Position numbers and translations under genes: made by a program. A stretch of DNA of 64,000 bases from Capsaspora owczarzaki ATCC 30864 (Eukaryota > Opisthokonta > Filasterea). Below, one piece after another: positions 15,901 to 50,976 of this stretch; position 1 is the first letter of the stretch; each line of letters starts with the position of its first letter. Where the stretch lies: positions 411,587 through 475,586 of the forward strand of contig NW_011887297.1 of NCBI RefSeq assembly GCF_000151315.2, in the 5' to 3' direction. The notes beneath the pieces are model-generated. The model was not told where the DNA came from, did not search any database, and was given only the letters and a program-made list of their open reading frames with translations.

Positions 15901-17090
15901 TTGGAGAACATCTCGGAAGTGGCGGGCCACGAGGCAAAGGCGGATGGAGACAGCGGCGATGCTTCAGAGCCAGCGGCAGTCACAGCAACGGAGGAGCCCA
16001 AGTGCTGCTTGGATGCATTCGCCATGGCTGCTTGCCACACCAAATTGGGAACGCTAGGACGTCGACCGACTTGTCGAAGGAGCGCCGTCAGCTCTGCTTC
16101 GTCGATGGGCTCAAAGTTCAGATCGTCATCCACGAGCAACGACGAGTACGACCGCTGCTTGAAAATCGCGGCATTTGAGAGTTGCGAGACACGAAGCGAC
16201 GTTGGCGTGGACGAAGAGCTCGACAAGGATGCCAGGGATGGTAATGAAGGGCTCTGGGTCGCTGAAATCAAGCGACCAGTCACAGTGCCCGAGCTGAACC
16301 CCGACGATGCTGCGGTGGTCGTGAGTGATGACGTGCTGGCTCGGTTGCCAGGCGGACCTCCTCCCGCTAGAGATCCGAGGAACGAGCCTGGTTGACCCGC
16401 GTCCTTGCCGTCGTTCAATACAGAGAACGACGTGCTTTTGAGCGATGACTGGCTGCGAGTGTCAATGTTTGCCAGCGACGAAGGAGGCATAGCAATGCTC
16501 TGTTCAACCCGGTCGGCGCCTTGGCTGAGCGCGCGGCGACGGATGAGTCGCTTTTGGAAAATGGTCGTGGGTGCAGCCAGCGCCTCCAACGAGCCACTTG
16601 CCTTTGTCGCACCCCCGACCTCGACTTGTAGTGTCGGTAAGGGGTATAACTGCAGCTGTGTCAGAAACGCTGCCCGCTTTGATGCGACCGTCGGACGAGT
16701 TTCGACTTGGAGACGTGTCCGGGGACAGTCTGCTTCATGGNNNNNNNNNNNNNNNNNNNNNNNNNNNNNNNNNNNNNNNNNNNNNNNNNNNNNNNNNNNN
16801 NNNNNNNNNNNNNNNNNNNNNNNNNNNNNNNNNNNNNNNNGCCGGCGAGTGTTTTGCAGCTCGTCGACGGTGTCGAACGACGGGATCCAAATCCTCCTGA
16901 TGGCTGAGGGAGCAGCTTGGTCGACGCCTTCATCGCAAACCGACTGCCGCCTCAGGTGATGCCGTTTTTGACGAAGGGATGATTGTGGTGAGGTTGACAA
17001 CTGCAGCTCACGCTGTCGAGACCGTTGCTGGCCGAGTGACTTGTCTAGTTCGTCCTCGCTGGTGATGGTGGACCTGTCGGCGTCGTTCTC

Positions 17091-25281: not shown

Positions 25282-26221
25282 GTCTGCCCCCATGCGATCG
25301 GATGGCGGTCAATCCCCAATTTTGGTGTTTTTTTTTTTTTCTTTTTGTTCTGCTTTTGTCTTGTTTCGCCTAGCCATGTGCTAGCTGTGCTTTTTGTTCG
25401 GTTTGGTCTTATTTTTTTGCTCGTTTTTCTGTCTGCATTTTTTGACGGTATTGTGCAGCACCATGGATGTGATGATTGTTGTTACTGTTTGTCACGACGT
25501 AAACCATTACTCTTATATTTTCCAAAACCCCATGTTTGTTGATCGATATTGGTATCGCTCGAGTGCGTTCCACCCGCCGCTGCTTTTTCATTACGGTGAA
25601 AATATGTTTGACAACGATGTCAAGGTGCGTGAACTTGGCTAGGGTGGTATCCCGTGTGTCAAATCAGCGATCAGGCGATCGCGTTTTTGAACGACGGCTG
25701 CACGCCGCGTATTCGTTCTTTTTGTCCCTTTCTTTCATTAGGTTTGGTATATTCACTCAAAATTTATGCGTTTTGAGCTGCTTTTGAGAGCATAGTGGTT
25801 GGTTTTGATTTGCAGCCCGTACATGAACCAAGCAAAGGTATTCTCTGCACAATGTGTCAGAAGGACCAACTTGACCTCCAATTTGCATAAAACTCGTTTG
25901 ATTGCCCCGTCGCTTGGCCTAACAATTGACCAAAATTGTGACATTCATCTGTGCAAGTTTCACTAGTAATGGACAAACACTCTGGCTGCTGTGCTTCACG
26001 AGAGCTTTTCTCATTTTATTTTTCAATATTTTTTATTATTATGTATTTCGAGTTTAGTCCTTTTTGCATTGACTCTGCCTTTTTATTTTTATTTTTTTTT
26101 TGGTTTTTTTTTTATTGTTTTAACCTTCTTTTCGTCTTCTTTTCCCCGTCCAATTGGCCAATCGTGCTGCAGACCGCGCGGGCGCACATACACACACATA
26201 CCTCCCCATACCGCACGAAAC
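25282..26221. other. Intergenic, T-rich, no gene seen
   Basis: These 940 bases separate the LIM gene stop from the WNK start. Both strands have only short open frames without domain signals. A strongly T-rich tract at 26020-26140 lies just before the WNK ATG and may be a leader intron or promoter element. Nothing else is recognisable. Confidence 0.5.
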
Positions 26222-27953
26222 ATGGACGGCCACGGCAACGGCGACGCCAGCAGCAGCAGTCAGTCGGCCGAGCTGCAGCATGCAAGTCTTGCGTCTGCTC
26301 AAACAGCCAATGCCGAAGCAGGCTCTGCATCTCCGCTTCTGTCGCCGTCCCTGGGCGCAGCCGCAGCGGCAGCCACAGCACTGGCGACAGCAGCGGGGAC
26401 GGGAGTTGGCGACACGAGCGCGTCGCACGTACCACCGACGAGCCACGTTCGCGGCTCGACACTCGTGTCGCCCGTGCCCGTCGCCTCCCTGAACTCTGCC
26501 GCAGCCCCAATCACGCATGCCGCAGCCTCTGCCGCCGCAGCCGCCGACGATGACGACGACTCGAGCGAGGAGGGCGACATGGACGATCCAGAGCTGGACG
26601 AGCAGGTCATCGACCAGTCTCCAGGCGGCCGCTACATTTGTGTGAGTCGCTTTCGCTTTTGCCACCTTCATTCGATGGGTTGGCGATTGGTGTCTCGTCC
26701 TTGAACTGCCCTATCGTCATGTGTTTTGTGGACCCCTCTTTCTTTCGCTCGTTGTGTTGAGCTTGAAAGTTTTTTTTTTTAGTTTTTTTTTTTTGGTTGA
26801 AGACTCATTGAACGTGATTTTATTGTTTGTGATTTTCTCACCGTCTGTTTTGTCAATTGCTGGATGCACAGTACGATGAAGTCCTTGGCACGGGTGCATT
26901 CAAGACTGTCTTCAAGGGCCTGGATACCGAGGAGGCGCGCGAGGTCGCCTGGAACGAGCTCAAGGTAACGCCTTAGCAGCAGCACCAAAAAAAAAAAAAA
27001 AAAAAAAAAAAACAGCCAGTGTGTCTTTTGATTTGTTTGCTGTGTCGCTGAGTGTTTGAGATGAGTGTTTGAGAGAGAGAGGATCCTGGTAGTTTGGGCG
27101 GGCCGTTTCGTTCCCATTGGCGAGAACTTTGCGAAAGCTGAGGCGATCGTTTCGAGTCGTCTCTCACCTTTTTTGTCTGATCATTTTTTTTTGTTTGTTT
27201 TTGCAACCACACCTGTGTAGACATCATCGCTCAGCAAGAAAGACCGGCAAAAGTTCCTCGAGGAGGTCAATATTTTGAAGCAGCTGCGCCACCCAAACAT
27301 TCTCGTGTTTTACGACTCGTGGTTTAAGCCAAACCGGAAAAAGCAGCTCGTCTTCATCACCGAACTGATGACCTCGGGGACGCTCAAGCAGTATCTGCAG
27401 CGCGTCAAGATGGTGAAGCCTCGCGTCTTGAAGAACTGGTGTCGTCAGATTCTGCAGGGCTTGAACTATCTGCACACGCGCGAGATGCCCATCATCCACC
27501 GCGATCTCAAGTGCGACAACATTTTCATCAACGGCAGCAACGGCGATGTCAAGATTGGTGACATGGGTCTCGCCACCCTCAAGAATGACTCGCACGCCGC
27601 CTCTGTGATTGGCACGCCCGAGTTTATGGCCCCGGAAATGTACGAGGAAAACTACACCGAGAAGGTGGACATTTACGCGTTCGGCATGTGCGTCCTCGAG
27701 ATGGTCACGCTCGAGTATCCATACAGCGAGTGCAGCAACGCTGCGCAGGTCTTCCGAAAAGTGACACAGGGTATCAAGCCGCAGTCGCTCGAAAAGGTCA
27801 CAGATCCCGCGACTCGCGAGTTTATCGACTCTTGTCTTCAGCCCGACGCGAGTCGGTTGTCTGTGGCCGAGCTTCTCCAGCATCCCTTCCTTCACGACGA
27901 AGCAGAAGACGAGGATCTTCCTTCACGACGAAGCAGAAGAGGAGGATCAGCAG

Positions 27954-28003
<50 letters not shown>

Positions 28004-31000
28004 ACAGCCAGAATCACAATCTTCAGGCCTGAGCGTCTCTCTCAACTCGTTGTCGTCGCAGCTGGACTTGGCTCTCAACTCGTTGTCGTCGCAGCTGGAC
28101 TTGGCGGCCTCTTCCAGCGGACACTCGTTGCAAGTTTCTGAGAGCATGTTCCTTGACGATTCGTCCCCGAACGTTAGTGTGTCAGACCCAGATCTGCTTC
28201 CGTCGCGAGACATGGATCGGACGTACTCGGACGCTTCGCTGTCCAGCGTCAACGCTCGCTCCAGTGTTCAGTACAGCGACAGCGAATCGCTGCTTGCCGG
28301 CGTGCCGGGTGGCGACTTTGAGCCCTCCCTGAGCGACGCGGGCTCTGTGTTGGCGAGCAATGCTTTGCATGAGAGTGGGAGCGCACCCGACCCGGCTCTG
28401 GTCGACGAAGCGGTGGATGCGTCCCTGAGCAACGACGCGTCGGAGTCGGCCGCATCCGGGGCTAATGTCGAACTCGAGAGGCAGTCTAGCGGCGAGTTCG
28501 ATGCTCAGCAAGTCCGCGAAGGTCTGGACGCCGACGTCGAGCTGGTCTCTGTCGAGGACGACAGCGTGCGGTTGCGCTTCCTCGTGTTTGTTCGCGAGGG
28601 CGACGAGTTGAAAAAGAAGCGCATCGAGTTCAATTTTGCGCTGTACGACGATTCGCCCGAAGAGGTTGCCACGGAGATGGTTCAGTCCAACTTGTTGGCT
28701 GCCAGCGATTGCCAGCGTGTGATTGAAGGTATTACGCGTATCGTCGAGCAGCAGTTCCAGATGCGCGGCGACTATGACGGCATGCTCGATCCCAACACCG
28801 ATCCGCTCGACTCGAGCGGTACCTATGCTGCGCGGCCAGAAGTGAATGGCGAATTTAACAGCATGTCCGAGTTTGTGCGCTTGAATCTCGCAGCGGCGAC
28901 TGCTGGCGGCGCAGATGGCGATGGATCGGGCCCCACTTCTTCGTCGGACACCCAGCAGGCGCATTTGCAAAGCGGCGAGGGGAATGATGACACGGTGCTT
29001 TCCGAAGACCTGGCCCGCACCCCGCCCAGCACCCAGCACGCCAGTTTCGTCCAGCCGCTCGGTCAGGATGCTTCTGCCACGTCCACGGGATCGTCCATCA
29101 ATTCAATCGCCTCCGCGTCGAGCGCTTCTCGCAACCTTCGCAGTCGGTCTCCTCGCGCGGGCTTGTCGACGTCTCCTCACTCGATGCACGTGCGTCGAGC
29201 TTCTGGCTCGCGCGCCACTTTCACCGCTGGCGCCAACAACATGACGATTGTGACGACAGACGCGACAAATGCTGCACATCGGAAGTTGACTCGAACAATC
29301 ACCGCCACCACCACGGCCACAACGCCCTTGCCCCGCAAGTCGCTCTCGAACGGCGCTCTGATCAATTCCGACTCGGCTGGTCTTCGAACCGAGCTCATTC
29401 ACTCTCCAGTTTCCTCCACCGATGGTGTCGCCCCGTCCCCAGCTCCCAGCTTGCCCTCTGCCACCAGCCCTTACAATCGCAACGTGGCTGGCTTGGGCGC
29501 GATTCCCGGCTCTCCCAGCACGACGTCAGCTCCCCCAGTCGATTTCACGCGGCGTGACAGTGATACGCGGCTCACCACCAATTCCGAACCGGACGTCGGT
29601 ACTGCAGGAACGAACTTTGGGTCTCCAGTTGCATCTCAGCAGCAGTCGCCGCAGCATCCGGGCGCTCTTGGGCAAGCTGCTTTTACCCAGAGTGCCGCCG
29701 GCCAGCAGCAGCAGCAGCAGCACCAAACGCATCAACTGCCGCAACAGCAGCAAGTGCCGCAACAGCACCAACCACAACACCAACTTCAACAACAGCAACA
29801 TCACCATCCGCAACAGCAACATCCGCAGCAGCACCAGCAGCAGCAACCTCCCACGCAACAACCGCCATTCCAGCACCAAGGGCAGCCGGTCTTTCAACCA
29901 CAGCAGCAGCAGCAGCAGCAGCAACAACAACAACAACAACACCCGCCCTTGCCCTTGGCATCCCAATACCCGACCGCCACACCCGCGTCTCCACCAGTCA
30001 CTGGGTTGCCGCACGCTGTTTTGCAAAACGTTGCGTTCACTCAGCTGGACACCCGACGCCCTTCCGTTCCTTCTGGGGCGCCCTCTGTCGACGATTTCCC
30101 GTTGGGTGCGTCTGCTTCCATGGACGGCGTCAACGCGTCGCTAACACAACAGCTTCAGGCTGAGCATTTGCACCAATCGTCCCAGCCGGCACAGATGCAG
30201 CCATTGACTGCACAGCTTTCTCAGCGGACTTACCAACCGCACGGCGCTGTCTACGCGCCGAATCCGACGATTCTCGGTTTGCAGCACCAATTCCCCATCA
30301 ACTCGGGCGTGCCAGTGATGACGCAGCCGGCGGTCTCGTCCGTCTCTGGCACCCTCCCCCGTCGCCGGAACCTGATCACGCTTCCAGGTGTTGAAGCGCA
30401 AAGCGCAACGTTGCACCACCAGCAACAAATGCTTGGCATCCAAATTTCCCAGCTCATGCAGCTGCAGGCGACGTTGAGCGAAAATCAAAGCGCCGCCGCC
30501 CAGGACGAGTGGGACGAGACGGTTCGCCGTCATTTTGTTGATTTCGAGACAATGTGCCAGCGTCATCTGGCTGAAATGCGTGAGGCGCTCGATGCCCACC
30601 GCGAGGAACGCAACGCGCTTCTGTTGCGCATTCAAGCCAGCGCGCAACTGGCCGAGCAACAACAACTGGCCGAGCAGCAGCAACTGCTCGCTCAGCAGCA
30701 GCTGTTGTCGCAATCGTCCAGCTTCAGCAGCTCTGTTGGCATGTCGCTTGCGAGCATGCACCCGCCGTCCGCTCAACAACAGCATCCGCAAATGCAACAG
30801 CAGCCCATTCAACAACAACAGTTGCAACAACAACAACAACAACAACAGCCCCAACCGATTCAGGCTCCACAACAACAACAACAGCAGCAGCAACAACAAC
30901 AGTCTCAGCTGCCGCAACCAATGCCCCAGCAACAAGCCCAACCATTGCCTCAGCAGCAACTGCATGCGCCTCAATCGGCACCGCCCTCGACGCAACAACC

Positions 31001-31318
31001 ACAAGCGCAGCCCATTCACCATCCGCAAACGATGTTGTCGCCTCAGGCCACCCCGGCTCAGCCTCAACAACCGGTCAACCAAGTCCACACGATGCTGCCG
31101 ACTCTTCAGCAAGCGGCTTTCACCTCTCCCCCTTCAGCGGCATCCCAGTCTCCTGTTTTTGCCACAAGCACCCAGCAGCAGCAGCAGCAGCAGTTACCGC
31201 AGGCACAGCAACAACAGCAGCCGCAGCAGCAGTTTGTGGCCAACCAGGTTTCGCTCCCATCTCAAGCACAGCAGCCACCGCAGCCTCAACAACCACTGCC
31301 TCAGCCGTCGTATCAGTC

Positions 31319-31350
<32 letters not shown>

Positions 31351-31841
31351 CGCCCTTGGCAACGCCATTGCTGCAGCAGACATCTTTGATGCCAAACCCA
31401 CAACAGCAGCAACCTCCGCTTCAACCTCCGCTTCAGCAGCAGCAACCTCCGCTTCAGCAGCAGCAACCTCCACTGCCGCAGCAGGTTCAGCAACATCACA
31501 CACAGCCTGCGCAATCAATGCCAGCTCCGCAGAAAGCCATTCCCGCTCAGCCAACTTCCAATCCAAACGCTTCGACCAATTCTGCCGTGTTCGGCTCGGG
31601 GCAATGGCCGAGCAATCCTGTGACCCCTCAGACGTCTTCTGGACAGCTCTTCCCGCAGCAGAATGGTGTTGATGTTTCTGATCCCAATGACCCCAATTCC
31701 AGCTTTGGCGAGTTTTCTGCTTATGTTTCCGCGACTCCTGCGCACGAAACGACGACGAGCTCAGCCAGTGCGGGTAGCCATGCAAGCCAGCCTTCCTTTG
31801 GCTACGCGCAAGCCGTTGCTGGCACTCACCAGCCTCAACCT

Positions 31842-31925
<84 letters not shown>

Positions 31926-32939
31926 CAACAACAACAGCAACAACAGCTGCAGCAGCATTTCCCATCCGACGGCTCGGTACCTCAGTCAGCTCCTCCACAT
32001 GCACACATGTACTCGGTTCCGCTTGGCTCGAACAACCTTGTCCCCACGACCTCGGCTCCTTCGACGAGTGTCAGCAACGTGCCGCCGCCGTCAGATGATG
32101 CGCACCAACGAACCAAAGTAGAGACACAGCGACGCATTACCGAACTGGAGCTTCGAGCACAGCAAGGATTTGAGTTGGACCTGACACGCAAGGCGGCTTC
32201 ATCAGTCACGTCGTCGTCGACGGGTGCGGCCTCCACAGGCTCTGCCCATGCAACGAATTTGGGCCACTTGCAGCAGCAGCAACAACAACCATCATCGCAG
32301 CACCCGCCGCTGACAATGATGAGTCGCAACTCGTCGGTGAGCTCAAATCTGTCGTCTGCTTCGAGCTTGGCTTCCTTCCCGAATTTCACCACTGAAGCCC
32401 TTTCTTCCTCGTTCCCGAACTTTGGTGCCGATGTGCATACCTCCTTTCCAAATTTCGGGAATGACGCTGTTCCAATGTCGCAGCCGATGAGTTTCCCCTT
32501 GCACCAACAGCCGCCTCAGCCGTCGCAGCACTCGCTCCAGCAGCAAGTGCTGCAACACCAGCATTTGGCTCAGCTGCAGCACCAACAGCAGCAGCAGCAC
32601 TTGCAGCAACAACACCAGCAACACCAGCAACACCAGCACCAACAACAACAACACCATGCTGCGTTCATGCTGGGTTCGAATGGTAGTATGGACTCTTTCA
32701 ATGTCGCGCCGGCCGCGGCAGGTATGCACTCGAGCTTCACCCAGTCCTCCTACATGCCCTCCTTGCTGAACCAGCAGGTGCACGGTGTTTCAGCTGCTTT
32801 CGATTCAACCGCGGTCCCTCACCCGTATGTCTCGGTTCCTCTTGGCGAAACAAGCCTGTCCTCGTCCGCGAGCATGGGTCCTGGAAACTTTGCGGCGATG
32901 GTCGGCTCGTGGTCCTCCTCAGGGTCTCTGCAACACTAG
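26222..32939 (+). CDS. WNK-family protein kinase with very long Gln-rich tail; frame broken by a 31-bp duplication
   Basis: Exons 26222-26641, 26872-26964 and 27221-32939. The kinase has WNK hallmarks: [13 protein letters not shown], with the catalytic Lys in the glycine-rich loop; VAWNEL, where the usual VAIK Lys is Asn; [19 protein letters not shown] in place of DFG; and [15 protein letters not shown]. Ser phosphorylation in that loop activates WNKs, which control ion transport through SPAK/OSR1 (known for animals). Downstream, RLRFLVF...[27 protein letters not shown] (about 28555-28760) is the OSR-type C-terminal domain found after WNK kinases. The remaining 1,400 residues are Gln-rich and disordered. 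A tandem duplication at 27886-27947 shifts the frame, so as sequenced the kinase frame runs into a stop at 28141 while the tail reads in another frame. No GT-AG intron removes it. Either the assembly is wrong or the allele is truncated. Confidence 0.85.
26987..27013. repeat. Poly(A) run in WNK intron 2
   Basis: Twenty-seven A in a row lie just after the donor of the second WNK intron. The sense-strand A run is unusual here, since most introns are T-rich on the coding strand. Confidence 0.9.
27886..27947 (+). repeat. 31-bp frameshifting tandem duplication in WNK
   Basis: Two direct copies of 31 bases (27886-27916 and 27917-27947) differ at one base (GACGAG against GAGGAG). Each encodes FLHDEAE in one frame. 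Because 31 is not a multiple of three, the second copy moves the reading frame by one, directly before the first Gln run. Confidence 0.95.
27948..28007 (+). repeat. CAG/CAA Gln run after the WNK kinase
   Basis: Twenty CAG/CAA codons encode Gln in the frame of the WNK tail. In the kinase frame the same bases read as Ala/Thr. Confidence 0.9.
28039..28104 (+). repeat. 33-bp in-frame tandem duplication in WNK
   Basis: A 33-base unit encoding [11 protein letters not shown] occurs twice without a difference. It keeps frame, unlike the 31-bp duplication 100 bases upstream. Confidence 0.92.
31842..31956 (+). repeat. Longest Gln run (35 codons) in WNK tail
   Basis: Thirty-five consecutive Gln codons, mainly pure CAG then mixed CAA/CAG, end at a Leu codon at 31947 and continue with QQ. 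Shorter Gln runs are scattered from 29700 to 32660. Confidence 0.95.
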
Positions 32940-33182: not shown

Positions 33183-33976
33183 CTAATTATTCTTGACCTT
33201 CTTGTCCTGGGCCTTCACCGGGAAGTTGGAGCACGAGCACAGGAAGACGAGGGAGAGGGGAAGGAAAAAGTACGGCGCGTAGATAGCAAGGAACCAGGGG
33301 AGCTGGGCCTGGGTGAGCTTGCCGGACATGACCGCCTCGTAGACAATGGCGGTGACAGTGGTCACGACGTGGGCACCGTAGATCAGCAGCGGCGAGCGAA
33401 TCCACGCCTTGCCTGGTGACGAGAAGAACGGGAAAAATCCAGTTGAAAACGCAAAGAGTTAGCGCGCGTTCAATAGAAAACACAACGAAACGTCCAAACC
33501 GAAACAGAATCAAAACAAAAAAAGGGTATCGACATCCAACAAGCACAACTTGTTCGTTCGTTCGTTCTCCTTCCTTACGGGTCAAGATGCCGTAGAAGGC
33601 GACAAAGAAGAAGGGCAGTTGGAAGATGAGCTCAATCCAGATGAAGCTCTTGTACCACTGCGGCGGGTTTGCGAGGAGGTAGTCGCCGAACGCCTCCGTG
33701 TACCAGGCGGTGGCATCCAGTGCGACTGTCGTGTGTGTGAGTGAGTTGTTCACCAGAGCAAGTGCGCAACGGTGAGCATTCGATCGATAGAAGTTGTAAA
33801 AAAAAAAATATCATCTTGAATTTTTTTTTTTTAAAAAACCCGCGCTTTTTGTGGCTCTAAAAGCACAACGACTCACACTTCGGGAACCAGTCGCGGGGAA
33901 GGATGGCCTGGAAGTCGATCAGGATGCTGATCGGGATGTGCGACAGGAAGTACAGCAGCAGTGCAATGCGAAGCAT
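33183..33976 (-). CDS. TMEM97: TMEM97 / sigma-2 receptor (EXPERA domain)
   Basis: Three exons, 33976-33877, 33725-33579 and 33412-33183, give 158 residues. The match to human TMEM97 is strong over the whole length: LLLYFLSHIPISILIDFQAILPRDWFP, then PPQWYKSFIWIELIFQLPFFFVAFY, then WIRSPLLIYGAHVVTT and LAIYAPYFFLPLSLVFL. Four hydrophobic segments fit the four-helix EXPERA fold of the endoplasmic reticulum membrane. TMEM97 binds sterols and affects NPC1 and cholesterol handling (known in animals). The acidic residues conserved in the ligand pocket (D in ILIDFQ, E in WIELIF) are present. The C-terminus is Lys-rich (AQDKKVKNN), consistent with ER retention. All junction phases agree. Confidence 0.94.
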
Positions 33977-41208: not shown

Positions 41209-44200
41209 ATGGCAGCGGCTGCCGTGGACGTCTACACGGCGCTCGAACTGCCACGCGAAGCCTACCATGGCCTGCGAGCGAGCGATCCTGCACTCGACGC
41301 GGTGCTGCACGCCGCAGAGTCCTTTGTACTCAAGGCGCACGCCTGGCGCGACGCCCTCGAGGCGACCAAGGCCGAGCGCGACATTGCTGCGATCAATGCT
41401 GGTGAGCAGCGTTTTGGGGTGAAGCGGGGCGCGAGACTGAGGGGAAAGAGGCGACAAAGAGTGGGGGGAGCGACAAGCGTTCCTCCACCGCTCCACCGGA
41501 TTCGTGATCATCATCAGCATCATCATCATCATTGTCATCAGCGTTATTGTTTGACAAAGGGGGCAGGGGGCAGGGGGAAGCAGCAGCGCGGTGTTCAGCG
41601 TAATGTTTGAGATCGCTGAACCGTTTCTCTCTCTCTCTCTTCGCTTCTTCCATGAGATTGACAAAAGCTTCCGAACATGACGACACTTGTATCGTGCATC
41701 GCCATCTCACTGTGTCATGTCATGTGTGTGTGTCTGGCAGAGCAACAATTCCATGCGCTGGAACGAAAGCTCGTCGAAACGCAGAGCGAGCTGCGCGCAA
41801 TGGCAGACCAGCAAGACCGGCTCAAGCAGACCATTGCCGAGCGTGGTAAGCCGAACACTCCTGTGTGATGGCAGAGCGCGAATGCGGAGGGGGGGGGTGA
41901 TTGGGGATCTTGCCTTCATTTTGGCCAAGAACGCGCGCGCTGAACCGCTCCTTTCTCTTTCGTCACAACCGTAGACGCCAGCATCGCAAAGGCTTCCGCA
42001 GACCTGCAACGCGCTCATGCAGCTCTGGAGGAGGCACAGACAGTATCACGCCGACTGACCACCGCCAACGAGGCGCTCGGGCTCGAAAAGATGGAGCTGG
42101 CCGACTTGGTCACACGTCGTGTCGCCGACATTGACCAGTTGAATGGTAGGACATGAGCTCGTTGCGGTCACGAGCCCGCTTGCTTGTCGGCCAGATCGTT
42201 GTTGTTGCGCAGATGCTCACCAAGGAGCGCCCCGAAAATTCCATTCCACAGAGTCAGCAGTCACTGCCAACCGTCGTATTGCCGAGTTTACAACGTCGCA
42301 AACCGAACTGCGTGTCAAGAACGAGCAACTTCAAAACGAAGCCGTGACCAGCAAGGTAATAGCTCGTCTGGATTTGGTTTTCACGTTTTTTGTTGCTTTC
42401 CTCCATTGCCTGAACACGAAATCCACCTCACTTTTACCACCTCGCTTTTTTACCTTCTCCCACAACTAGTTCCGCGAAAGCCGCCTGGAGCAAGAGCGAG
42501 ACATGTTGCAGCAGCAAATCAACTGGCTCAACGAGGAGCTCGCAGCGAATGCGCGCGAGCTTGCCTCGACGCGCGAGTCGCTGACGGAAAAGTTTTCGAC
42601 AGTGTCGAGCGAGTGGACACAGTGCAAGCTCGATTTGCGCACGGCCACGTCCACCAACGAGATTCTCACCAAGCGCCTCGCTGACGTGGAGCGCACGTCT
42701 GACGGCTACGCGCAGCAGCTGGCCCAGGCACAGCAAACGCTGCAAGTCGAAACCGATCAGTTCCGCCAGGAGGTTATCGGCAAGACGCGGTTGGTTGACC
42801 TGTACAAGAGCAAGCTCGATGAGATGGAGACCAAGTCGGCCCAGCTGGCTTCGACCGTGGACGAGCTGTATCGTCACGTCAACGAGCTGAAGGTCGAGCA
42901 CTCGGCCACCCTCGAACGCATGCAGCATGAGGCGTCCGACTCTCTCAGCCTGCAGGCATCCAAGGTGGCTGAGCTCGAAAAGGAGCTTCGCCACGCCAAC
43001 GAGCTGCTCCACGGCGGCCAAAGTGGCGGAGCAGGAGACTCTGACTCGGCGTCCGACGCTCGCCTGCCTCTGAATGTCTCTGACGCGCTCAGCGTGCTTT
43101 CGCCCACAGCGTCGATTGCCAGCCAGCTTTTGAAGAAGGGCAAGTCCATCACTGAAATGTACTCAATGTACGTGCAGACTGCCGAGCAGCTGCACGAGGC
43201 GCAGGACGAAAACACGCGCCTGAACGCTTACCTACAGGATATTCTGCAAGAAATGGAAAAGAAAGCGCCCATTCTGCAGCAGCAACGCACCGAGTACGAG
43301 CACGCCGTCCAATCTTGCGCGCGTCTCACTGAGCGACTCGACCGCGCCATGCACCAAACTTCCAGTCTGGACGACGAAGCCCGCACCCTGCGCTCGCAAG
43401 CAGCGCACGCTTCACGCGAGCGCGTGCGCTACGAGACCCTTGTCCAGGATTTGGCGCGTCAGGTGCAGGCGCTCATCCGGGCCAACACTGAGCTGCAAGG
43501 CCGCACCGTCGTCGAGTCTGGCGACCAGCAGATGGACGAGTCACTCGCCAGCGCCGACGATGTCATTTCGGCGCGTGTCGTCGAGTTCCGCTCGATCGAA
43601 CAGCTACAGCAGCGCAACCAAGAGCTGCTCACGCTCGTTCGTCAGCTCGGCCAGCAGCGCGAAGCTTCCGAGCAGGAGGCTGTCAACGACCGCATCACCC
43701 ATCTCAGCGAAGAGAACGAGCGCTTGCAAGCTGAGCTGGACCAGCTGCAGATTGCACGCGACCACGAGCGCCAAACGCTGGACAATGTTGCCCGACACCG
43801 CGATACCTGGCGCGTGCTCTACGAGCGAGCGCACAACGCAAGCGCTGCACCTGGATCCTCCGATCAGTCTGCATTGCTCAACATTTCGATTGACGAAGGC
43901 GTGCGACCCACGTCCCAGATGTTGGCGCTTACCGGTTCTCAGCCATCGGCGCAATCCCAGCAGCAGCAGCAGCAGCATCATCATCAACCACCGCAGCAAC
44001 AACCGCAGCACCAGCAACAGTCATTGCAGGCTGGATCCTCTTCCTCGGACTCCTTCCAAGCCGAATTGTCCCAGCGCCAACACCAGCAACTGCAAGCCCA
44101 ATTCAACGAAAATGTGCGGTTGCTGCAGGAGCTGCAGCAAGAGTTTGACATTTACCGAAAGGAAAAGTCGGTCAACGACGGCATGTTTAACGATGAGATT

Positions 44201-47138
44201 GCGCGACTGCGCAAGGAGGCCGATGACGCGCGCGCGCAGTGCCAGCGTGCCGAGCTGCAGGCGCAGTTCTTGAACGAGCGCATCACCCGTCACGAATCCG
44301 CGCTCGAGGTGGCTCGCAACGAGGCAGAGACATCCCGTCGCCGAATTGCCGAGTCGTCTGCTTCGGTAGTTGAGCACCAGCGCACGCTGGACAAGGCCAT
44401 GACCGAAACGCAAGCGCTCCGCCAAGAGCTGAAGCACGCCGAGGTTCAGCTCGCCAACGCCCGTGCCGAGCGCCAGCTCTTCCAAGACTCTGAGCAGCGC
44501 GCCATCAAGGACAATGCCGAACTTCGCCAGGAGAAGGCGCGCCAGAACGAGCTCATCACAAGCTTGCAGTCCCTGCACGAGAGCTTGGAGCTGCGCGAGG
44601 CCGATGCTCGTCGCAAAGCGAACGTCCACATCGAGTCGCTCGAGAAGGAGATTGCGCTTGCACGTCGTCGACTCGAGCAGGAAGGCCAAAACGCCTCGCT
44701 CGCTCGGGCAGCCCACGACTCTCAGTGCAAGGAGCTCCGCGACTCTTTGGAGGCGGCTGGCCGTGCCCACCAACACACCAAGGAGGAGCTGGCGGCGGCG
44801 AATGCATCGGTGCAGGGCTTGCACGCGCAAATTGCACAATTCAAGCTGCAGTTGGAGGCCAGCGAAGGCCGTCTGAGCATGATTCTGAGCCGCACGCCAC
44901 GTCTCGGGGCCGCCCTCGCTTCGACCACTGCCGGTGTTGCAGCAGCTGCAGCAGCAACTGGTGGCTCGCTTGTCGCTGGCGGAGACGGCATCGCTACGGA
45001 TGTCGCTATGGCTGAGGCACAGGAGCTGCACAACCGAATCAGCACGCTTGACGCCGAGAACAAGGCCCTGTCTGAGCGTGTCGCTGAAAGCCGCACCCAC
45101 GTCGAGCAGTACAAGGCCATCGCTGCGGCCAACGAGGAGGCATTGCGCGATCTCAACCAGCTGCATGAGACGTACAAGCAGTCGTCGGAGGCTGCGCTGG
45201 CCGCCTCCCAAAAGCAGATTGAGAGCTACACTGCTCAAATTGCCGACCTCGAGCGCACACAGCTCGAAAGCGCCAGCGAGGCCGTCGCCTTGCACGAGAG
45301 CGCGGACCGAGCCTTGAAGGAAGCGCAAAAGGAGCTGGACACGGTGCGTGCCAAGCTTGACGTTGCCATGCTCAGCGTCCAAGACAACGAATCCCGCGAG
45401 GCCGCTCTTCGCGCGGACATTAAAACCCAAGAAAAGCGCACCCTGGAGGCGTTGTCAAACTACGAGCGCGAGGTGGTGCTGCACGCCAGCAGCGTCAATG
45501 CGCTGTCCGGCGCGAAGGCTAGGATTGCCGACCTCGAGGCAGTTCTCAGCACAGCCGAATCGAACGCAGTGACGGCACAAGAAACGCTCCGCGTGAGCAT
45601 GGTCTCTTGGGAGGAGCAAAAGCAACGGCTGCTGGCCGACCAAGAGGCGCTCAAGGAGCGTCGCGACGAACTCGCCAACCAGAACGCGCTCTTGCACTCT
45701 CAGCTTGATGTGGTCACTGCCCAAGCTCTGCGCGCACAGCAGGCTGGTCCCATCCAGTCGTCCACTCTGTTCTCCATGCCCGAGCGCCAGCAAGGCGAAG
45801 AGCCTTCCGCTGCTGCGTCCGCCGAGCTTGCCTCCTCGCCTGCACGCGACGCCGAGCGAAGCGTGGAAGAGCTGCGCGAGATTGTTCGCTTCTTGCGCCG
45901 CGAAAAGGACATTTCGACGTGCCAGCACGAGCTTGCGCAGCAGGAGGCGACACGCAACCGGCAGCAGTACATGCATGCTCAGCGCACGCTTGACGAATGC
46001 CGCGCCCAGCTGACCGAAGAGCGGCGCCGCGCTCAAGAGCACGCCGAAAGCGCCGTTCAACGCGCCGAGCTGCTCGAAAAGATCAACCACAACAATCTGC
46101 TTCGCGAGAGCAACGTCAAGTTGCGCGAAGACGCAGAGCGTGAGACGAGACGCGCCAGCGAGTTGGAGGTTCGCGTTCGCACCCTGGAGTCTCAGGTTGG
46201 CCCGCTGCAAGAACAGGAGCGGCAACTCAAGGCCGACATTGAACGTCTCGAAGCGGAGAAGATTGCCCTTGAGAACGACATTACGCGCTGGAAGACCCGC
46301 GTCCAAGGCCTCATTGACAAGTATTCGCGCATCGACCCCGATGAGCACTTGCGTCTCGAGCAGGAGGTGGTTGCTGCTCGAAGCGAAGTCGAGCAGCTGC
46401 GCACCGCCGCGGCTGCTCAGCTCGAAGAGGTTACCACGACCCAGCAACAGCTCGCCACGGTCAGCGCCGAGTTGGCACAGCTCCAAGCCAAGCACGCTCA
46501 AGACGCTGAAGCTGCAGCTGCCCAATCTGCCGAGCTGGACAAGGTCAAGGAGAATCTCGAGCGGGTACGCAATTTTTTGGCTGTTTTGGAACTTGATCTT
46601 GTTTGGAGAAGGGAAGGCTAGTTTGCGCTGAAGGATCTTGCCTTCTCAATGATTGAAAATTGGTTGGACCATGGGTTTTTCTTTTGTGTTTGTGTGTGTG
46701 TGTGTGTGGTGCAGACACGCAAGAATGGACTTGCCTTCAAGAATGCGCTCGAGAAACTCAAAGCTGAGAACGCAGCGCGCGCTGCGACGGACGCGGTTCC
46801 TGGCCTGACCCAGCAAGTTACTGAGCTGACTGAAAAGGTCACCGCTCTGACAGAGCAGCTCGCAGCTGTGACTGCCGAGCGCGACGGCCTCAGCAAACAA
46901 ATGCAACAAGGCACGTTGATGCTCAAGCAGTATCGCGAAAAGCTTCAGCGCACGTCCCAAGAGCTAGAGGCAGCCAAGGCCGCGCAGGCACAGGTGTCCG
47001 AGGCGGATGCCGAGCTTCAAAAGTCAAAGGCCGAGCTGGAAGAGGTGAAGCGTCAGAACACGCTCAAGATTTCGCTATTGCAGTCCAAGAATGAGCAACT
47101 CAAAGCGACTGTGGCCGAGCTCACTGCCCAGCGAGCTG

Positions 47139-49009: not shown

Positions 49010-50976
49010 TCAGTGGTCTAGCAGACCACTAGACAATGAGGAACTGGTGCGTTGAACGTTGTACCGATTTCGCCGAATCTGATCCTCCAACGAGCCCGCT
49101 GTAGCTGCCGAAAAGGCCGTCTTTTGAACATCTCTACAATGGTGCGCCCCAAAAGATCAAAAGATTAGTCAGATACAACAGCAGGCCACCACATGAATTC
49201 ATACACCAAACTCATCGTCACTCACGTCAAGAAGGAAGCATCGCCTGTGGACGCGGCGCCTTCAGATTGTTCGGCTGCTTGCACTCGCTGCAATCGTGCT
49301 CCACGCTCTGCCTGGACTTCCTCTGCAGCTTGCTTCATCTCAGCAAGACGGCGCTGTAGTTCTTCGTTTTTGGAGCGTGGCGGCGCCACATCCATTGGAA
49401 CTGCTGCAGAGGATGCCGAAGCGGATGTTGCAGCGAGAGGGGCGCCACTGGATTGATCGTCGCGTGGTCCCCAGCGAGACTGGCGATTGGAGCTCGATTC
49501 GGAGGGTGCGTGTGACTGTTGTGCGTGGCGCGAATCCCCGGCATCATTTCTACGGCGCGAGGGCGATGGCGACCGTTGCGGTTGCGAGCGGCGACGGTCT
49601 GGTGAAGGGGATCGCCGATGATCACGATTGGAGGATTGGTAGCGCGACACGGGCGAACGGGAGCGCCGGCGGGGTGGCGTGCGAGAGCGGGAATGCTGAC
49701 GCCGAGGCGGAGAGCGAGACCGCGACCGCGATCGAGAATTCGAACGTCTCCGGGACGAACGATCATGCCGTGAGGGTGATCGACCACGGGGCCGGTGATG
49801 CTCTGGCGATGAATTGCGGGTTGGGGATCGAGAGCGCGACGAACGACGATCACGCGAATGCCGGCGCGGAGGAGGAGGAGGCGAGCGTGAGTGGCGGCGG
49901 CCGCGATCCGAGTCCATGCTGCGACGGTTGCGATCAGAGCGATCGGGCGAATGTCGGCGGTCATCATTGCGATACCGAGATGAACGATCAGCATCATGGC
50001 TGGGTTCTTGGGGCTCGTCCGAGTCGCTTCCACTCGAAGAAGGATGCCTGTTGTCCTTTCTCTTGTCATGCTTGTCCTTCTTGTCCTTCTTTTCCTTCTT
50101 GTCCTTCTTGTCCTTCTTTTCCTTCTTTTCCTTCTTTTCCTTGCTGCTCTTCTTGTCTGCAGTGAGGGCCTGGAGCTGCTGCTGCTTGAGGACTTGCAAG
50201 CGCTGCAGTTGGACCGGGTTGCTGAGCAGCGCCTGCAGGCTCTCCTGCTCCTTCTTCTTGATCAGATACATCGGGTCCTCACGGATCTTGTTTGCCATAT
50301 CCAGCGCGCTTGGTGCGACTTGGGTGATGGCCGCGAGCGAGCCTTGCACCGCGCCCGACTGAGCCGGCAATCCGGACTTGCCGGCCCCGCCAGCACTCCC
50401 GCCAGCACCAGCACCAGCACCAGCACCAGCACCGACGAACAGTGATCCTGCGACGCCCGACGCCTGCGACAGGGACGAGGCCGGAGCGCCCGCCGACGTC
50501 GTGTCCGAGACGCGCTTGCCAAGCAGATACTCTTCCTGCTGCCTCGACGCCGCGACCGCCTGGCCAGTGTACATCCACTCGAGTCGCTGTGCGCCAGCCC
50601 TGCGCAGTTCAATAAAGAAGAAAGGGAGGTGGGGGTGGGGAAGACAGAGTCAGTTGTCCAACTCATGCACGAAAACGGAACGACGTTACGTCGACAACCT
50701 CGCTCAGACCAATCTCAGAATATTCGGCTCAGAATAATTGGTATCAGTAACAAAATTGTGCGTTTTGGGTGGGGGTTTCACTTACGAGATTATTCCCGCT
50801 TCGACAGCTTCACGGTGCAGCTCTTCTTGCCGCCGCTCCTCTTCCTTCTCCTTCTGCAGGACGGCAATCTTCTTGTCTTCGGCCTCGCGCTGCTGCTTGG
50901 CCTTCCACAGACGCTCCTGGTTGGCGTAGGTCTGCGGGTGCCACGACTTTTTCAAATTGAGATCGCCGCCGCCCAT
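49010..50976 (-). CDS. CWC25: Pre-mRNA splicing factor CWC25
   Basis: Three exons, 50976-50786, 50599-49226 and 49133-49010, give 562 residues. The start MGGGDLNLKKSWHPQTYANQ is nearly identical to human CWC25. It is followed by QRLEWMYTG, EEYLLGKRV, and MANKIREDPMYLIKKKEQE, all in the expected order. The middle is a Lys-Glu-Asp repeat and then an Arg-Ser-rich region typical of splicing proteins. The last exon restores the conserved end LEDQIRRNRYNVQRTSS. CWC25 enters the activated spliceosome late and promotes the first transesterification step near the branch site. The RS domain here is longer than in human. The gene is convergent with TPR. Confidence 0.95.
50071..50143 (-). repeat. Lys-Asp/Lys-Glu coding tandem repeat
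   Basis: Units of 9 and 15 bases built on TCCTTCTTG (plus strand) encode an alternating KEKKDKKDK tract in CWC25. Confidence 0.85.

Follow-up and report, generated by a model that had tools for sequence, protein, structure and literature searches.

The only WNK-type kinase gene found in the genome of Capsaspora owczarzaki ATCC 30864 is broken in the assembly by a 31-bp head-to-tail tandem duplication at the end of its kinase domain, behind which the remainder of the protein is encoded in another reading frame. We consider this to be, with a probability of about 0.48, a recent and unprogrammed duplication that is a real allele of a diploid organism; its reality, its heterozygosity and its origin are what we infer from the assembled DNA. 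A real allele is slightly ahead here, and an error of the consensus is nearly as likely. The cause is an ordinary one, with no pointer to a new mechanism of gene control.

The gene lies on the + strand of the window (the whole 64-kb stretch of DNA that was analysed) and has three exons, the last of which is long and starts at 27221 (Table 1). An in-frame stop is found upstream at 25967, 5' of exon 1, and exon 1 is closed by a GTGAGT donor at 26642. Translation of the kinase frame across exons 1-3 gives 477 aa; past copy 1 of the duplication, this frame reads Leu-Pro-Ser-Arg-Arg and then an Ala-rich stretch up to its stop codon. The second frame overlaps with the kinase frame at 27765-28138, and its tail from 27948 on contains 337 Gln in 1,663 codons (20%). 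Pfam neighbours of the gene in the window include an EXPERA/EBP-type protein (33187-33753, - strand), a TPR/MLP1-like protein (42503-46621, + strand) and a CWC25 splicing factor (49222-50574, - strand), and a scaffold gap of 100 N (16741-16840) is found about 9.5 kb upstream of the gene.

Table 1. Features of the WNK gene and of its tandem duplications (positions in the window).
Feature	Position	Strand	Remarks
WNK exon 1	26222..26641	+	from first ATG (predicted start); translation stays open into exons 2 and 3
WNK exon 2	26872..26964	+	glycine loop, GAFKTV, VAWNEL; flanks CACAG and GTAACG
WNK exon 3, kinase frame	27221..28141	+	open 27221-28138, stop 28139-28141
Second open frame, remainder of WNK protein	27765..32936	+	stop 32937-32939
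Tandem copy 1, 31 bp	27886..27916	+	coding in kinase frame
Tandem copy 2, 31 bp	27917..27947	+	coding in second frame
RNA hairpin over duplication junction, 10 bp	27914-27923 with 27939-27948	+	fold of 27880-28010, z -2.83
CAG/CAA run	27948..28007	+	20 Gln codons in second frame; Ala-rich in kinase frame
Second tandem duplication, 2 x 33 bp	28039-28071/28072-28104	+	exact, frame-keeping; 91 bp downstream of the 31-bp duplication
CCTL2_WNK domain, second frame	28605..28751	+	PF24889, E 1.9e-9
OSR1_C match inside CCTL2_WNK region, second frame	28620-28745	+	PF12202, E 3.9e-8

According to Pfam, the kinase frame contains a Pkinase domain (PF00069) at 27236-27892 with an E-value of 3.4e-51. Compared with PDB, the kinase piece has WNK3 and WNK1 as its top 15 matches (E 1.1e-96 to 2.8e-91), followed by PAK2 (E 1.4e-31), all among the best 60 of 2,617 matches; by sequence, it is nearest to WNK among the solved kinases in these best 60. 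WNK kinases are distinguished by a catalytic Lys that is placed in beta2, with none in beta3, and this placement is seen in the translation (glycine loop; VAWNEL) when judged by eye. The CCTL2 region gives weaker PDB matches to WNK1, WNK3 and WNK2 chains (E 1e-4 to 3e-3). The gene is like animal WNK1 and WNK3 in its kinase domain (which aligns to WNK3 with E 1e-96), in having CCTL2/OSR1_C behind the kinase domain and in its long Gln-rich tail; unlike in those genes, all parts 3' of the kinase domain are, as sequenced, out of frame with it.

The genome (27,456,641 bases in 29 contigs) agrees with published Capsaspora oligos: both GAPDH qPCR primers (PMC9170242) have exact matches, 532 bases apart end to end, and a 100-nt coWts targeting arm (PMC10959527) is 100% identical. 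A 90-nt coYki arm and a coYki primer (one mismatch allowed) gave no match, and the contigs may not include the coYki locus. No second WNK was found in this genome by a search with the kinase piece, which gave 129 matches, or by a search for OSR1_C. The runner-up of the 129 matches, C12:351050-351598 (49% over residues 48-221), was tried as a backup WNK and rejected, because its HRD motif is changed to HGN and it presumably resembles the WNK-related pseudokinase NRBP. OSR1_C is found at three places in the genome, i.e., the WNK gene, this NRBP-like gene (at C12:350556-350666) and C14:494026, the last being a putative OSR1/SPAK substrate kinase.

The two copies of the 31-bp unit are identical at 30 of 31 positions (TRF: period 31, 2.0 copies, score 119), with C27910/G27941 as the sole difference, and FLHDEAE is read in both, one copy in each frame. 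The repeat tract (27886-27948) extends 1 nt past two units, i.e., the junction homology is 1 nt; two direct adjacent copies of less than 100 bp with 1 nt of microhomology have the build of a small tandem duplication made by end joining. These observations agree with the sequence-only reading, which had reported two 31-bp direct copies with one mismatch at the end of the kinase domain, FLHDEAE in both with a shift of phase, an Ala-rich tail of the kinase frame that ends at 28141, and an OSR-type domain with a long remainder in the next frame.

Codon usage places the frame switch at the duplication. Using a score trained on 25 other ORFs of at least 500 codons (21,002 codons), every 62-base slice of 27225-27906 favours the kinase frame, and the slices of 27907-28650 favour the second frame, with the exception of one in the Gln run for which the third frame is 0.01 higher. 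With one frame change, 27224-28570 scores 177 bits and the change point falls at 27917-27920, the start of copy 2, as compared to -12 bits for a model that keeps the kinase frame throughout and -40 bits for one that keeps the second frame (the training set for the change point left out L031, a locus described below). The frame break coincides with the duplication, and if there were just one copy, the kinase frame would continue into the Gln codons. This switch of the coding signal from the kinase frame to the second frame at copy 2 supports a recent allele.

The age of the break is limited by the downstream second frame, which has 0 stops in 1,663 codons. Unconstrained sequence is expected to acquire 197-236 new stops per unit divergence with a transition weight of 1 or 2 (259 with a weight of 3), and the unconstrained divergence since the break is unlikely to exceed about 0.013-0.015 changes per site (5% level). 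Because these 1,663 codons are open, either the duplication is young, or it is missing from the gene that is expressed or from the cell altogether. The same frame bears on a fixed loss, in which the WNK of this lineage would now be kinase-only and the remainder a relic. The sequence as given does read kinase-only; however, the downstream codons are open with normal codon usage (as scored to 28650), and no more than about 1.5% unconstrained divergence is possible since such a loss at the 5% level, and we hold a fixed loss to be very improbable. One count goes against a real allele: if the two copies have drifted apart since the duplication, by 1/62 each, a stop-free downstream frame has a probability of only 2-4%, a figure based on one event and with a wide range. 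C27910/G27941 may have originated as a new mutation, a repair error, a heterozygous site or a read error. The mismatch had been brought forward as a sign that the copies are real, and it carries little weight as such, since the same difference would be seen with a heterozygous site or an error in a read.

Programmed +1 ribosomal frameshifting in or just behind copy 2 would produce a short and a long kinase from one mRNA. The shift needed is indeed +1, the two frames overlap, and the kinase frame of copy 2 contains AGA AGA, a codon that is absent from exon 3 apart from the copies (0 of 60 Arg) and is rare in the 25 other ORFs (42 of 1,268 Arg). A hairpin also spans the junction (Table 1), and 0 of 200 shuffles were as stable. 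However, rare codons are expected from out-of-frame reading, and the hairpin depends on the duplication junction and is probably incidental. There is no kinase-frame stop at the shift site, and the kinase frame continues for 191 nt past copy 2. Among +1 frameshift signals, we found no in-frame stop until 28139 and no recognised slippery site, just the junction hairpin; the kinase-frame codons at the shift region are GAT CTT CCT TCA CGA CGA AGC AGA AGA GGA GGA TCA, in which we know of no established slippery site. Since a single copy needs no shift, a frameshift mechanism would have to be younger still than a very young duplication. As the AGA pair and the hairpin can be explained by the out-of-frame copy 2 and by the junction, we regard programmed frameshifting as very unlikely. 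Of the three explanations offered by the sequence-only reading, an error and a recent allele thus survive, and programmed shifting is left almost without support. It is extremely unlikely that the duplication is on both alleles and that a +1 shift at the tandem AGA or at the Gln/Ala run makes two WNK forms; if this were true, a short kinase blind to crowding would exist beside a long one with a condensate-forming Gln-rich tail, and the volume response would be set by the efficiency of the shift.

The frames could also be joined by splicing, through an intron of length 1 modulo 3. Counting GT..AG pairs only (with GC-AG and AT-AC outside the count), 371 mechanical pairs of about 40-400 nt, with donors at 27221-28138, would restore the frame. 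Yet just 71 of the 371 have a GTRA, GTAG or GTAT donor; these use seven donors at 27391-27771, all within the kinase domain, so that part of the kinase domain would be removed. The gene's own two introns have the donors GTGAGT and GTAACG. None of the 13 GTs in 27840-28138 has the form GTRA, GTAG or GTAT, and no GT starts between 27864 and 28034, which agrees with an earlier statement that no GT-AG intron spans the copies. We see a splicing bypass as highly improbable.

In the case of a consensus or assembly error, the cell would contain one copy, and two slightly different versions of these 31 bp, from haplotypes or from reads, would have been written consecutively, with C27910/G27941 being a heterozygous site or a read error. 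We give this explanation somewhat less than even odds. It is favoured by the intact downstream frame together with the lack of a second WNK in the genome searches, and the assembly has gaps (the 100 N in the window at 16741-16840, and 104 N in L026). Haplotype chimerism is also recorded in another assembly of Capsaspora: passages of PMC12221973 describe chimeric haplotypes that were phased manually and 430 insertion/deletion sites (7,937 nt) edited by hand. The likeness lies in haplotype chimeras and consensus errors in the same species; those edits concern that paper's own new assembly, however, and the passages name no WNK site. On the other side, the two copies are not separated by N, and the surveys of tandem duplications and of Gln runs given below also speak against an error.

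With a near-exact survey of 38 loci (319,039 bases including the window; unit of at least 25 bp), we were able to identify five duplications with units of 36, 30, 62, 31 and 33 bp, including two frame-breaking ones (31 and 62 bp); the 30-bp unit consists of two units of a 15-bp array. In the window, only the 31-bp and 33-bp duplications pass the filter (unit of at least 25 bp, 95% identity, low-complexity filter). The 33-bp unit is a multiple of 3 and an 11-residue peptide is encoded twice; its junction homology is 1 nt. The 36-bp duplication (L006) has open frames over it on both strands and is a candidate coding duplication. The 62-bp duplication is from a 200-kb sample (twenty 10-kb stretches evenly spaced on contig 1) and is located at 6459-6582 of L031 (C1:2850001-2860000). 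It is exact (62/62 identical), has 0 nt of junction homology and is not a multiple of 3 in length; the open frame and codon usage change frame there, in a modest switch that is weaker than in the WNK case, and neither of the two pieces has a Pfam match above the curated cut-off. L031 is a probable second frame-breaking case of the same kind, and its presence in a 200-kb sample means that such a break is not a device of one locus.

Frame-breaking duplications thus seem to recur in the assembly, which argues against a special function in WNK and fits heterozygous alleles or consensus errors. A further probable frame-breaking exact duplication in 200 kb would imply many broken genes, unless such duplications are artefacts or heterozygous, and this adds to the case for an error. 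The units of the two frame-breaking duplications (31 and 62 bp) are both divisible by 31, a possible sign of a software artefact. We considered a common artefact period and dropped it: the five units are 36, 30, 62, 31 and 33 bp, and divisibility by 31 in two of them is no more than a hint.

A looser survey (at least 15 bp, 90% identity; 264,000 bases, i.e., the sampled stretches and the window) yielded 18 duplications, and in 14 of these the period is divisible by 3 (binomial P 1.4e-4 versus one third); among the exact ones, the fraction is 7/10 (P 0.02). Exact shorter duplications of 16 and 17 bp, not multiples of 3, were seen as well. Since artefacts would not favour multiples of 3, this excess indicates that the duplications are mostly real and kept by selection for the coding frame, which counts against an error for duplications of such build. 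Codon-patterned sequence may add to the excess, and the excess speaks for duplications in general, not for the 31-bp case.

The sequence-only reading had placed a possible error beside a Gln run, and we therefore looked at 43 Gln-run places (11 runs, and 32 pieces around places from a 67-row list). Among the first 11 runs, two have a duplication within 150 bp (the WNK run, on both sides, and L006, with the 36-bp duplication), and none of the 32 further pieces has one. The longest Gln run in the window, with 35 codons (31842-31946), likewise lacks a duplication. A duplication of frame-breaking length is found at 1/43 places, which is the 31-bp case of WNK, leaving 42 other places without one. 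These counts support neither a hot spot nor a general stutter beside Gln runs; Gln runs as duplication hot spots were dropped given 0/32 in the further pieces, and an error beside a Gln run is no general effect.

Under the preferred reading, a recent unprogrammed duplication on one allele, the 31-bp segment where the kinase domain ends would have been duplicated head to tail. Replication slippage would want more junction homology, and slippage in the strict sense, as suggested earlier for a recent allele, is unlikely with just 1 nt at the junction. Judging from the product, the most likely route would be a staggered break, fill-in and end joining. Passages of PMC8355091 report, for mouse and human cells, that staggered breaks which are filled in and then end-joined give rise to duplications of less than 100 bp with little homology. 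The WNK duplication has the same head-to-tail arrangement, two copies, a unit of tens of bases and little homology (1 nt here), whereas the breaks in that work were induced ones, in cells of these two mammals, and the route proposed here is deduced from the product alone.

Capsaspora is diploid in culture, as stated in passages of PMC9170242 and PMC10959527, and the manual phasing of chimeric haplotypes in PMC12221973 counts in favour of this reading as well. The duplication would then sit on one of the two haplotypes of the cell line, the one that the assembly displays. As 31 is not a multiple of 3, the mRNA of the duplicated allele would give a truncated kinase of 477 residues without the CCTL2 domain and without the Gln-rich tail, and the other allele would supply a working gene. 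The human WNK1 1-494 fragment mentioned in passages of PMC10024530 is likewise a kinase without the C-terminal domain; it is a laboratory construct, in contrast to the 477-aa Capsaspora product, which is predicted from sequence only.

In the assembly, the duplication breaks the sole WNK gene found in a diploid protist, a salt- and volume-sensing kinase gene. WNK gene models built on this assembly may be cut short or contain a spurious intron, in which case comparisons of the early WNK-OSR1 pathway that include this close relative of animals could overlook the WNK tail. A real, heterozygous allele would amount to a naturally occurring kinase-only WNK in a species for which disruption of both alleles of a gene has been described (passages of PMC9170242 and PMC10959527). 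We found no literature on WNK1 phase separation in Capsaspora. WNK tails form condensates according to a published view (passages of the commentary PMC10024530), and the 20% Gln of the C-terminal region (27948-32936) fits the condensate-forming tails described there.
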